The notes under the pieces: generated by a model | Databases searched by the model: none | The model's input: only the letters and a program-made list of their open reading frames with translations | Told to the model about the DNA's origin: nothing | Shown here: one piece after another, positions 27,160 to 31,497 of the stretch | Numbering within the stretch: the stretch's first letter is position 1 | Layout: every line of letters starts with the position of its first letter | Position numbers and translations under genes: made by a program | Source: an uncultured Clostridia bacterium | GTDB lineage: Bacteria > Bacillota > Clostridia > RUG12999 | DNA: 34,110 nucleotides | Assembly: GCA_946555455.1 (NCBI GenBank) | Contig: CAMNSU010000018.1 | Coordinates: forward strand, 1-34,110 | Direction: 5' to 3'

Positions 27160-28131
27160 CTACCACAGTCCCGTTTGGGTTAATTTATTGGATATTTTAT
27201 TCACTGCAAATACCATGATAAAGGAAATGACGGAGGTGAACAGCCCGATTGCCGCCGGATAGGAATAGTTGGCAAGCGGCGCCGCGATACCTGTTTTATA
27301 TACATAGGTGCTGATAACCTCCGAAACCTCCAGGTTGGTGGGGTTCTGCATGAGGAAGATTTTGTCGAATCCCACCGACAACACATGTCCGCAATCCCGA
27401 ATGAGGGTAATCATAATGGTTGGCAAAATGCAAGGCAAGTCAATATGCCAAATACGTCTGACCAAACTCGCGCCGTCCATGATTGCCGCTTCATGCAGCT
27501 GCAGGTCTACGCCGCTGAGCGCCGATATGTATAGGATAGAACCCCAGCCCGCGCTTTGCCAAACGCCTGTCCAGACATACAAAGACCGGAAATATTTCGG
27601 TTCGCCCAAAAAGTTCACTTTATGCCCTGTGAACATTTGCAGCAAGCTGTTCACAACACCTGTTTGGTTGTTAAACACCTGCATGATGATACCGACCATG
27701 ACAACCACAGAAATAAAATGCGGCATGTAGGTCACCATTTGCACCGTCTTTTTAAAATGTTTGCTCTTGACATAGTTGAGTCCGATTGCCAGTAAAATAG
27801 GTACCGGCAGTCCCGCAAGCAATGAATAGACGCTGATGGTGATGGTGTTTTTAATCAACAGCCAAAATTGATAGGTTTTCACAAACCGTATAAAATGTTG
27901 AAGCCCTACCCACGGACTGCCCCAGATTCCTTTGGACGGAATGAAATTCCGAAATGCAATCTGTGCGCCATACATGGGAAAATAGGCAAACACCAGAATA
28001 AATGCTACCGGTAATATTATCATTACATACAGCTGCCAATTTTTTTTGAAATCTCCAAATATCCATTCCCGCTTCACTTTTTCTTTTGGTGCGGGCTGCA
28101 TATTTCGAGTTGCCACTGTTTTTTCAGCCAT
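27160..28131 (-). CDS. Carbohydrate ABC transporter permease (LplB-type)
   Basis: The 323-residue inner membrane protein has an N-terminal cytoplasmic stretch, a first membrane segment at about 33-55 (LYVMIILPVAFILVFAYFP), five more segments, and the EAA loop LHEAAIMDGASLVRRIWHIDLP. The KGIWGSPWVGLQHF segment is typical of LplB/YteP proteins, which import pectin or other oligosaccharides in Bacillota. ATG 28131 follows AAGGAGG. It is the first gene of the large operon, with a TATAAT about 80 bp upstream. Confidence 0.94.
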   Translation of the reverse strand: MAEKTVATRNMQPAPKEKVKREWIFGDFKKNWQLYVMIILPVAFILVFAYFPMYGAQIAFRNFIPSKGIWGSPWVGLQHFIRFVKTYQFWLLIKNTITISVYSLLAGLPVPILLAIGLNYVKSKHFKKTVQMVTYMPHFISVVVMVGIIMQVFNNQTGVVNSLLQMFTGHKVNFLGEPKYFRSLYVWTGVWQSAGWGSILYISALSGVDLQLHEAAIMDGASLVRRIWHIDLPCILPTIMITLIRDCGHVLSVGFDKIFLMQNPTNLEVSEVISTYVYKTGIAAPLANYSYPAAIGLFTSVISFIMVFAVNKISNKLTQTGLW

Positions 28132-28464: not shown

Positions 28465-28495
28465 TATTGCGCATTTTGAAGAGATATGATATAAT
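28465..28495 (+). promoter_or_regulatory. Extended -10 promoter reading into the structured gap
   Basis: TTGCGC, a 17-bp spacer and TGATATAAT (TATAAT at 28490-28495, with TG extension) form a good promoter on the plus strand. The downstream sequence contains a series of strong hairpins before the AraC-type gene at 29230. Confidence 0.65.
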
Positions 28496-29229
28496 AAGTC
28501 TATATCGAAAGGGGGACTCATTCCGGCTCGTTTTACTCGCCGTCAAGCCGTCCCCCTTGTCGGAATCCCCCTAAGCAGCGTCCTTCACTCGCGTGTCGTG
28601 TCTCATACTTCGACACTCCGGACGCTGCAGAGTATGCAATCTTCGGCACATGTCCGAAGATTGCATGAATGGAAAGTAGTCCGGTTCCGGTTACTTACCG
28701 TAGAACGCTACAATAAAGACAAGCACTAAAGCTCTCCGCAGGAGCCAAAGGGGGGCAAAGGAGCGGAGGATATTTACCCTCTGGGGCACGCGTCCCTCAG
28801 AAAAAGTAAATGGAGGAGAAAATGGGGGCTCTAAGCGGAGGGTATTTCCCTCAGAAAAAGTAAGAGGGGGAGGATTTGGGCATAGCCCAAATCCGGAGGA
28901 CATTTTTCACGAGGGATATACCCGTAGCGAAATTCGGGGGACATTTTCAAGGGGGAAATATCTGGAACGACATTCGGGGGGCGAAGCGGAACGCCAGAAA
29001 GTTTTTGGTACTTTTTGTCGGCAAAAAGTACATATCAGTCACGCAAGTGACTGGTATCACCCCCCCGCAGGAAAAAAAATCCTTCCGGTAGGGAAAACAA
29101 ATCGTTGCCGGGCAACTATTTATAAGACGTATTTTACAGCCCCTGTGTTCCATGTAAAAAAACGGTATGAAAAACCGTTCTATATCAACTAAAATTCCCT
29201 ATGAAACTATCAGATAGGAGGCAGCGCGC

Positions 29230-31497
29230 ATGTTACATCGAAAATGGAAATCGGATTTGCTTCTTTTGCTAAAATTCGTTTTCCCCTTTCTGCTTGTCAT
29301 TGCCATTCCCATGACGGCAAGCTACGGTCTGAGCAGTTTTATGCTCCGGACGCACCGCAGGGACGTTCTGGATTCCTATTCCGTCATGCTGAAAAACAAC
29401 ATGCATTCCATTGAATATGAATTTTCCCAAATAGAATCCACCATTGACAGCATGGCGCGAAACAAAACTATCACGCATTTTCTGCAAGCAGACAGCTATC
29501 CCATTTCCGAACTTCGTTTGTTGTCCCAAGCGCTCAATTCCTACAACATTCAGGACGATTTGATTCAAAATGTGTTTTTATATAACCCCCGTCTGGATTA
29601 CATTGTCGATATCTGGCGCGGCTATTTAAGCGCCGCGTCTTTTTGGGACGCGCATATGCAAAGCAGCGGCGCCGATTATGACAGTTGGATTGCCGCCTTG
29701 CGCGACATGAAATGGGTGCGTCGGTACGACGGCTATCCCTCTCAGGACGACACAGGTTACCGGACGCTTTCCTACACGCAATCCGTCCCGTTTAAATATC
29801 AGCCGACAGGACATGGAAAAATTGTGATTCTGCTGAATCAGGAAACGTTGCTGCAACGATATGCCGATTTGTTTTCCGGCAATGGAGAAAATCTGTTTAT
29901 TCTGGACTCTGGCGGCAATCTCCTGTTGTCCATGGATCGCGGCGGCGATTTAAACGCCCTGCCGGAATTCGTCCGCGCGGGCAGCGACCCACTTATCAAT
30001 CGTCCTGTCTCTATGAATGGTCAAAAATTTATCGTATCACGGTATGTCAGCAGTTCCGGCAATCGGACTTACATCTATCTCATTCCGGAGCGCGATATCA
30101 TGTCCGGCGCAGATGTCTTGAACCGCGTTGTGATGGTGCTTTGTTTTCTCGCGCTGCTGCTGGGCGTTATCGCCAGCATTGCCGTCGCCTCCAAAAAAGC
30201 CAAAAGTTTTACGCAAGTAACTGCTATGATGGACAAATATGGCGTGCGTATCCGCGAAAAAATGGGGCTTTCCGATATCCGCAAAAACGAATACGATTAT
30301 CTGCGGGACGGCATGGACCAATTGGTGACAGACAATCTGGAATATAAGACGGAACTGGACCAGCGACGCGCCCATTCTGTTTATCAAGTGATGGACAAAC
30401 TGCTGAACGGTAAATATACCTCTTCTGATATTTTGTCGCAAGACCTCGCGCTTGCCGGCATGGATTTGCACGCCCCCAAACACGTCCTGCTTATTTTGCA
30501 GCTGGGACGGGAATACCGGCTGGATATCGGCGGCAAAAATGTGAAAGAATTTATCCGCGACAGTCTGTATCTGACGGTGAACGAATATTTTTACCTGCAC
30601 GAAACCAGCGCGCGCAATCTGGCGCTGCTGTTTTCCTTTGACGCGCCCGACGACGATATCTATCACGCGCTGACGGGCATTGTCTCTAAAATTCGCACCA
30701 GTCTTGCCTATCCCTATGACATTGAAATGACCTTTGGCGCGTCCGATATTTGTTCCTTGGACAATATCGGTCAGGCGCTTTCCCAAGCGATGGTTGTCAT
30801 TGAATATAATGCGCTTGGATATAATACGCAGCTTTTGTTTCACAAAGATTTGCCCAGCGACGCGGACTGGTTTTATTATCCTGTTCAACTGGAAAACAGG
30901 CTGTATAACTATGCGGTTATCGGCGACAAGGCGGAGGTGCAAAACACGCTGGACGAAATTTATAATGAAAATTTTGTCCGCCGCAGCCTTTCTGTTGTGA
31001 GTGCGGAAAAGCTCATCCATTCCCTGCATTCCACCACAAGCAAAATTGTCGGCAGCAGCGGCAACGCGCTTTCCTTGCAAGACGGCAACTCCATCACAGA
31101 GGTCTTTTGGAATGTCAACGATATTTTGCAAAAGCACTGTGACGGCGTTTTGGCGCAAAACAAGCAGGAAAACAAAAATACCACCGAAAAAATAAAAGAG
31201 TATATCGACAGCAGTTACACCAATCCCGATTTATCCCTTTCGGATTTATCCATTCGCTTTAACCTCAACGAAAAATATCTTTCCTCTTTGTTTAAAGAGA
31301 ATATGGGGCAAAAATTTTCCACCTATGTGGAAAATCTGCGCATGGACGCCGCGTGCCGTCTCATTGCGGAAGGTCAGCACCAAATCCGCGATATCGCGCA
31401 AATGATAGGCTATACCAACGACGTCAGCTTCCGGCGCGCGTTCCGCCGCTGCAAGGGTATCACGCCCTCCGCCTATGCGGAAAAACTGAAACAGTAA
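29230..31497 (+). CDS. Membrane-bound AraC-family regulator with extracellular sensor
   Basis: The 755-residue product has a membrane segment at about 10-38, a large predicted extracytoplasmic sensor region (about 40-290, dCache-like, with DDLIQNVFLYNPRLDYIVDIW and GENLFILDSGGNLLLS), a second membrane segment at about 295-316 and a cytoplasmic part. The last ~105 residues (652-755) are an AraC-type double helix-turn-helix: SLSDLSIRFNLNEKYLSSLF and IRDIAQMIGYTNDVSFRRAF. This layout is typical of one-component regulators beside LplABC importers, sensing extracellular sugar directly. It is divergent from the importer operon and most likely its activator. AGGAGG lies before ATG 29230. A hairpin terminator follows. 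The ligand is unknown. Confidence 0.92.
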   Translation: MLHRKWKSDLLLLLKFVFPFLLVIAIPMTASYGLSSFMLRTHRRDVLDSYSVMLKNNMHSIEYEFSQIESTIDSMARNKTITHFLQADSYPISELRLLSQALNSYNIQDDLIQNVFLYNPRLDYIVDIWRGYLSAASFWDAHMQSSGADYDSWIAALRDMKWVRRYDGYPSQDDTGYRTLSYTQSVPFKYQPTGHGKIVILLNQETLLQRYADLFSGNGENLFILDSGGNLLLSMDRGGDLNALPEFVRAGSDPLINRPVSMNGQKFIVSRYVSSSGNRTYIYLIPERDIMSGADVLNRVVMVLCFLALLLGVIASIAVASKKAKSFTQVTAMMDKYGVRIREKMGLSDIRKNEYDYLRDGMDQLVTDNLEYKTELDQRRAHSVYQVMDKLLNGKYTSSDILSQDLALAGMDLHAPKHVLLILQLGREYRLDIGGKNVKEFIRDSLYLTVNEYFYLHETSARNLALLFSFDAPDDDIYHALTGIVSKIRTSLAYPYDIEMTFGASDICSLDNIGQALSQAMVVIEYNALGYNTQLLFHKDLPSDADWFYYPVQLENRLYNYAVIGDKAEVQNTLDEIYNENFVRRSLSVVSAEKLIHSLHSTTSKIVGSSGNALSLQDGNSITEVFWNVNDILQKHCDGVLAQNKQENKNTTEKIKEYIDSSYTNPDLSLSDLSIRFNLNEKYLSSLFKENMGQKFSTYVENLRMDAACRLIAEGQHQIRDIAQMIGYTNDVSFRRAFRRCKGITPSAYAEKLKQ

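Follow-up and report, generated by a model that had tools for sequence, protein, structure and literature searches.

The hairpins behind a promoter upstream of an AraC-type gene in a Clostridia genome look like a patchwork of short folded repeats

Upstream of a gene for an AraC-type regulator in the window, i.e. the whole analysed stretch of 34,110 nucleotides from an uncultured Clostridia bacterium, a promoter reads into a chain of strong hairpins, and the question arises whether these hairpins make up the leader of that gene, a separate small RNA, both of which the preliminary description had considered, or something of another kind. On the other side, the stretch is bordered by a minus-strand ORF of 323 aa (27160-28131), which reads like, and is presumably, an ABC sugar-transporter permease. 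For the AraC-type gene itself, no strong nucleotide match was found in two genomes of the genus, G001 and G002, among the 40 candidates scored per genome (for the genes of this locus, none in G002 and weak short ones in G001).

The promoter-like site and the strong hairpins at 28465-29060 proved to be real, with an exact extended -10, z-scores of about -6, and the 13-bp, the nested two-level and the GCAA-capped stems all located where they had been described. Arms were 100% complementary in the 13-bp stem (28634-28646/28654-28666) and 91% complementary in the GCAA-capped stem (29032-29042/29047-29057), and both levels of the nested stem were recovered from the sequence and from the predicted fold. 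The predicted fold of 28505-28677 reached -70.7 kcal/mol (z -5.96) on the plus strand and -78.6 kcal/mol (z -6.23) on the minus strand, and that of 28500-29060 had a z-score of -7.73 on the plus strand; no dinucleotide shuffle folded as well as either stretch. A two-hexamer promoter scan left the site at 28467-28495 unlisted, its -35 being poor at the 17-nt spacing. In the terminator scan of the window, no terminator-like site closed the element, and just two weak ones were located near 29104-29116, at a frequency not above that of shuffles; a discrete transcript is thus left undefined.

A structure private to this locus is refuted by copy number. When 28465-29230 was searched in its own genome, 71 matches were returned across many contigs, including the query itself, and the coverage by other copies had sharp edges, which mark out the units 28505-~28677, 28750-28990 and 28990-29035. 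Nearly all of 28505-29035 is high-copy repeat, the very observation that the preliminary description had named as contrary to its proposal, and neither a locus-specific leader nor a private small RNA survives it. The hairpins are a patchwork of short folded repeats, and the first unit, here called element A, has the look of a DNA element dispersed through the genome rather than of a leader private to one gene.

Features of the promoter and hairpin region and of the downstream gene, in window positions.
Feature	Positions	Strand	Description
Sigma-A-like promoter	28467-28495	+	Weak -35 TTGCGC (28467-28472), 17-nt spacer, perfect extended -10 TGATATAAT (28487-28495)
Element A, dispersed structured repeat of ~171 nt	28505-28677	-	Copies, covariation, strand-wise wobble
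Helix P1 around P2	28509-28558	-	P1, AAGGGGGAC (28509-28517) with GTCCCCCTT (28550-28558); P2, 28524-28527/28539-28542
Helix P3 with inner P3a	28576-28627	-	P3, 28576-28583/28620-28627; P3a, 28598-28602/28612-28616; nested two-level stem of the preliminary description
Helix P4, 13 bp	28634-28666	-	Conserved loop; 13-bp stem of the preliminary description
Tail module	28678-28745		GTAGTCCGGTTCCGGTTACTTACCGTAGAAC...; behind A in several copies, not all; flanks, coverage
Repeat B, partial copy	28752-28820	-	With 18-nt micro-insert (28776-28793)
Repeat B, full copy, ~118 nt	28824-28941	-	Outer stem and inner hairpin around conserved internal-loop strands
Repeat B, second partial copy	28929-28982	-	
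Repeat C	28990-29060		GTACTTTTTG/CAAAAAGTAC hairpin (29008-29031) and GCAA-capped palindrome (29032-29057)
AraC-type regulator gene, 755 aa	29230-31497	+	ORF; HTH_18 and HTH_AraC

Among the loci retrieved, element A gave 93 profile matches. By the covariance model R1, 47, 52 and 24 copies were counted in the three genomes of the genus (G000, G001 and G002), and some of these 123 matches lie outside the loci studied, which are those that a search matched. The same model found A in none of the six other genomes of the family, and an order-level search gave nothing beyond the genus, the order comprising the same nine genomes as the family. In the class, 9 of 291 genomes had matches to A, namely the three of the genus and another six that belong to three further families (E-values down to 1.6e-15). 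The 291 genomes are a sample drawn from a larger group, and with nine candidates scored per genome the class-wide copy numbers are lower bounds. Distant homologues of A numbered 21 matches among the loci retrieved from those genomes. Copies at different sites within one genome were up to 97.4% identical, and 18 of the 62 in-genome copies had a neighbour at an identity of at least 90%. Element A is accordingly present as many similar intergenic copies at unrelated sites, as is typical of BOX and BIME repeats. A phage or plasmid origin was rejected, with no match in phages or plasmids and no exact 23-nt pattern in viral contigs. No published description of the element was found in the open-licence PubMed Central literature.

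The check for compensatory changes that had been proposed turned up many of them among the copies. Over five helices and 39 pairs in 34 copies, 98.9% of the cells were paired and 26 of the 39 pairs were changed on both sides; respective values for the single helices were 98.4% and 4 of 9 pairs (P1), 97.8% and 3 of 4 (P2), 98.2% and 7 of 8 (P3), 100% and 3 of 5 (P3a), and 99.8% and 9 of 13 (P4). Double-changed cells amounted to 176 versus 44.9 in a shuffled control that ignores relatedness. When the partner was slid by 1-3 columns, a control that keeps relatedness, pairing fell to 40-44%, with the caveat that a structure read from one aligned sequence is, in pairing alone, apt to outscore its slid versions. 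The 34 copies are subset A2 of an alignment of 62, subset A1 having 37; copies with an 18-nt loop insert or other large inserts and several close orthologues were left out of both subsets, and L071 (arm shifted by the aligner), L033 and L056 were additionally left out of A2. In the homologues from distant families the helices were kept with other sequences, and the loop and joining motifs were similar. A candidate switch, in which a second CCCCCT strand pairs with the P1 arm, was poorly kept (x:z G.U 38, A.C 39) and was rejected. The window had no Rfam match at gathering score, and a known RNA family is not supported; at E-values up to 5 there were weak matches alone, in the window that of Clostridiales-2 over repeat B (14 bits versus a gathering score of 58.6).

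When a pair drifts by way of G.U on one strand, the opposite strand shows A.C at that pair. In element A, read along its minus strand, the wobble cells were G.U in 58 cases versus A.C in 7, cells that are not independent, as about 15 pair columns hold G.U and 7 hold A.C (read from listings). The excess was seen in promoter-proximal copies (36 versus 3; 21 of the 34 rows, by a slightly looser -10 criterion), in the other copies (22 versus 4) and in the distant homologues (10 versus 3), and an earlier plus-strand count with poorer P3 pairing had given G.U 18 versus A.C 75. Because G.U far exceeds A.C there, promoter-proximal copies included, the fold of A is constrained on the minus strand of the window, which is the template strand of the 28467-28495 promoter. 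A cis-regulatory leader RNA is expected to be constrained on the sense strand, and the wobble excess is antisense; no other observation speaks as strongly against a leader RNA and in favour of a function at the DNA level or of a minus-strand RNA.

Of 74 copies (two of the 76 had less than 200 nt upstream and were not counted), 34 had a TATAAT that ended no more than 20 nt ahead of the P1 end, against an expectation of 0.75, and in 29 of these 34 it was the extended -10, TGnTATAAT. A reverse-strand -10 motif was there in 2 of the 74. Spacings from TATAAT to A clustered at 4-5, 9 and 14-16 nt, and a -35 hexamer matching at 5-6 of 6 positions accompanied 10 of the 34 promoter-proximal copies versus ca. 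2.5% in shuffles. The upstream sequences were otherwise mostly unrelated. With respect to gene context, both neighbours ran along the element in 24 of the 76 copies, were divergent in 23, ran both against it in 18, were convergent in 6, and were incomplete in 5; in 10 of the 76, a gene running in the opposite direction had its start codon no more than 20 nt from P1. Pfam searches on ten downstream proteins, scanned out of 32 mechanically picked ORFs (the pick in the window being a short ORF, not the AraC gene), returned ten different functions: EPSP/MurA-type, phosphoglucose isomerase, alpha-L-fucosidase, RsmD (Cons_hypoth95), ATP synthase alpha/beta family, AsnA, MatE, deaminase, PLP enzyme and FtsK. 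Since these functions are unrelated, the genes behind promoter-proximal copies are not a regulon.

Part of the leader proposal stands nevertheless: the promoter-plus-element arrangement recurs in 34 of 74 copies, which makes co-transcription of the hairpins as a leader plausible, whereas the element is a dispersed high-copy repeat with the opposite strand constrained. Judging from the sequence, the AraC-type gene would carry the repeat mosaic in its leader if transcribed from 28490.

The distant copies abutted a terminator-like hairpin on the P1 side in 7 of 21 cases (background 2.1%); such hairpins as a general target of A were rejected, with 0 of 74 copies in its own genus. In seven homologues of one distant family, f51 (L141, L143, L146, L148, L149, L153 and L154), another hairpin (CGAAAGGGAACTCCCTTTCG and variants) lies ahead of the element. 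At another locus, L081, A lies in the spacer between a DnaA-like gene, whose stop codon it directly follows, and a DnaN-like gene (read from the translation); L071 is its orthologous locus.

Modules are combined, nested and exchanged around A, again in the manner of BOX and BIME repeats. The promoter and the tail at rsmD are shared between G000 and G002, and what they flank is A in the former and a different hairpin module of ~90 nt in the latter. The orthologous loci L014/L070 and L050/L088 share one promoter and differ in the subtype of A, and repeat B was nested inside A in L057 and L066. The remaining differences between the species resemble the outcome of recombination, either from copy to copy or in the vicinity of XRE genes. 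Among the loci compared no clean empty site of A was seen, the differences being replacements or recombination-like; dispersal and module exchange are shown in outline, and insertion itself would be a putative further step. The ends of the 62 aligned copies are not mutually inverted, i.e. they lack the terminal inverted repeats of a MITE.

Repeat B gave 54 matches among the loci retrieved, and in the 22 of these that were covered by an arm test, with 14 distinct left arms, the match to the own partner was 0.96 versus 0.77 when shuffled (0/1000). Repeat C was covered by about 8-10 other copies over 28990-29033 and by at most three beyond 29041. The micro-insert of ~18 nt (ACCCTCTGGGGCACGCGT and variants that keep the small hairpin) recurs in loops of A and B copies: besides its site in the window (28776-28793), it was located in the P4 loops of L010, L019, L083, L085, L027, L080, L081 and L078, and in the P1 region of L059, and its ends may bear a TA repeat. 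Intergenic regions also share a short palindrome, ATTATACCA...TGGTATAAT, which has an extended -10 on both strands; it stands upstream of A in L056, L083, L024 and L087, and 29032-29057 of the window is similar. Hairpin module D (CTCCGCCTCGCCGCGCATAA...GGCGGAGATGCATGAATAAAA) was found in the G002 rsmD leader (L182), where A stands in G000, and a module similar to D follows A in the downstream flanks of L023 and L025.

Taken together, the region is probably a cluster of non-coding, non-autonomous interspersed repeats lying side by side, BOX/BIME-like in kind, with A as the main unit and with a strand-specific fold. From its anatomy we infer how A might have spread. It would have been dispersed as a folded single strand, either ssDNA or a minus-strand RNA copied back, by an enzyme; the P1 end would join DNA that is open at a promoter or exposed in some other way; and the modules would later be shuffled as copies recombine with one another. 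Behind a promoter, A would be a passively carried folded 5' leader, which may modulate expression.

The fixed promoter spacing could instead reflect a selected leader function. Should A be a plus-strand cis-regulatory 5' leader RNA, a genus-specific attenuator class copied to many promoters, it would be natural that TATAAT precedes 34 of 74 copies by 4-20 nt, with P1 as the leading end, that the reverse motif is rare (2/74), and that the plus strand folds well (z -5.96). This is unlikely, however, as wobble pairs are retained on the opposite strand in the promoter-proximal copies too (36 versus 3), the downstream genes are unrelated, 40 of 74 copies are without an exact -10 there, P1 lies at most 20 nt from the start codon of an opposite gene in 10 of 76, and modules are exchanged at orthologous promoters. 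Palindrome correction by template switching might also have produced the compensatory changes, in repeats that are inert and whose fold is not selected; such a process suits the near-perfect palindrome of P4 and the many distinct stems. It does not predict the strand-specific asymmetry of the wobble excess, and the arms of P1 and P3 are separated by nested structure, while loop and joining sequences are conserved even in distant families; of all the explanations weighed here we give this one the least credence.

The genes beside A offer two further explanations. Genes with two HTH_3 stretches (double-HTH) are a large family in the genus, and of 32 double-XRE genes, 8 have A starting -1 to +24 nt from where the protein match ends, in every case on the coding strand, which is also the constrained strand. 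Element A could on these grounds be a minus-strand structured RNA, or the structured 3' end of a gene, stemming from a unit of a double-HTH gene and A, with the other copies as dispersed descendants. Yet 24 of the 32 genes (strong matches) have no adjacent A, the eight are partly orthologous or duplicated and so not independent, a recombination remnant is visible at L059, and in the ORF listing no distant homologue is beside such a gene, which makes this origin distinctly improbable. One double-XRE match has a single in-frame TAG in both species (G000:C93:3496-3927 and G002:C56:292-723). That A is a REP-type element moved by a RAYT would agree with a RAYT-like gene in G215 (L142 2220-2729, minus strand; NF047646 59 bits, below the cut-off of 80; no Pfam model at 0.001), located ~43 nt from an A homologue, and with a GTAG 5' of P3a in 16 of the 21 distant homologues, namely all 16 from f51, as in REPs according to PMC6006769. 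The own-genus copies, however, are without GTAG before P3a, RAYT (NF047646) had no match at E<=1 in G000, G001 and G002, no Y1_Tnp (PF01797) was present in G000, and no A lies beside the RAYTs of G153 and G195. RAYTs occur in 157 of the 291 class genomes versus 5 of the 9 that bear A, i.e. class-wide without relation to A. A RAYT or Y1 transposase is not supported as the mover of A, and a REP-type origin is very hard to credit.

Beyond the repeat-cluster reading, a bolder synthesis is conceivable, which we hold to be doubtful as a whole: A would represent, within Clostridia, a new class of mobile elements with a strand-specific fold. Its P1 end would be targeted to transcription starts in its own genus or beside terminator-like hairpins in distant families, a double-HTH protein encoded beside a subset of copies would carry or control it, and housekeeping promoters would use it as a leader cassette that can be interchanged. 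If the main reading of the region is right, tens of genes in this gut lineage would carry exchangeable folded cassettes at their first transcribed bases, some of them housekeeping genes (MurA/EPSP-type, RsmD, V-ATPase A-type, TadA-like deaminase). Such loci would form a natural series in which one could study the tolerance of structure close to a promoter, the factors that recognise a strand-specific set of hairpins, and the question whether mobile single-stranded DNA targets open promoters. As a caution, strong covariation and a promoter alone do not make a regulatory RNA, and counting wobble strand by strand can reveal which strand is constrained.

Several known systems share traits with element A. 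Integron attC sites are folded single strands with a strand preference; A resembles them in its strand-preferring folded strand and in its position behind the gene end at 8 of 32 XRE genes, and differs from them in that most copies are not beside such a gene. With the structured RNAs of Rfam, A has in common a covarying, RNA-like multi-helix fold, without a match at gathering scores. REP, BIME and REPIN sequences are, according to PMC6006769, extragenic folded repeats of mosaic make-up, with GTAG at the foot of the hairpin and a length of 21-65 nt for REPs, and the f51 homologues of A likewise have GTAG before a hairpin. Unlike a REP, A is ~171 nt long with several helices, has no RAYT in its own genus, and shows no class-wide association with one. 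A parallel in described features is the BOX element of Streptococcus pneumoniae, which according to PMC3049150 is likewise composite, modular, strongly folded, intergenic and present in many copies, clustered with and inserted into other repeats, and at times co-transcribed in leaders. The main novelty, as far as can be read from sequence, would be a composite repeat of the BOX/BIME kind that is multi-helix, strand-specific and promoter-clustered: unlike BOX, element A has a multi-helix fold that covaries on one strand, its copies cluster where transcription starts, and further families of the class have homologues of it.
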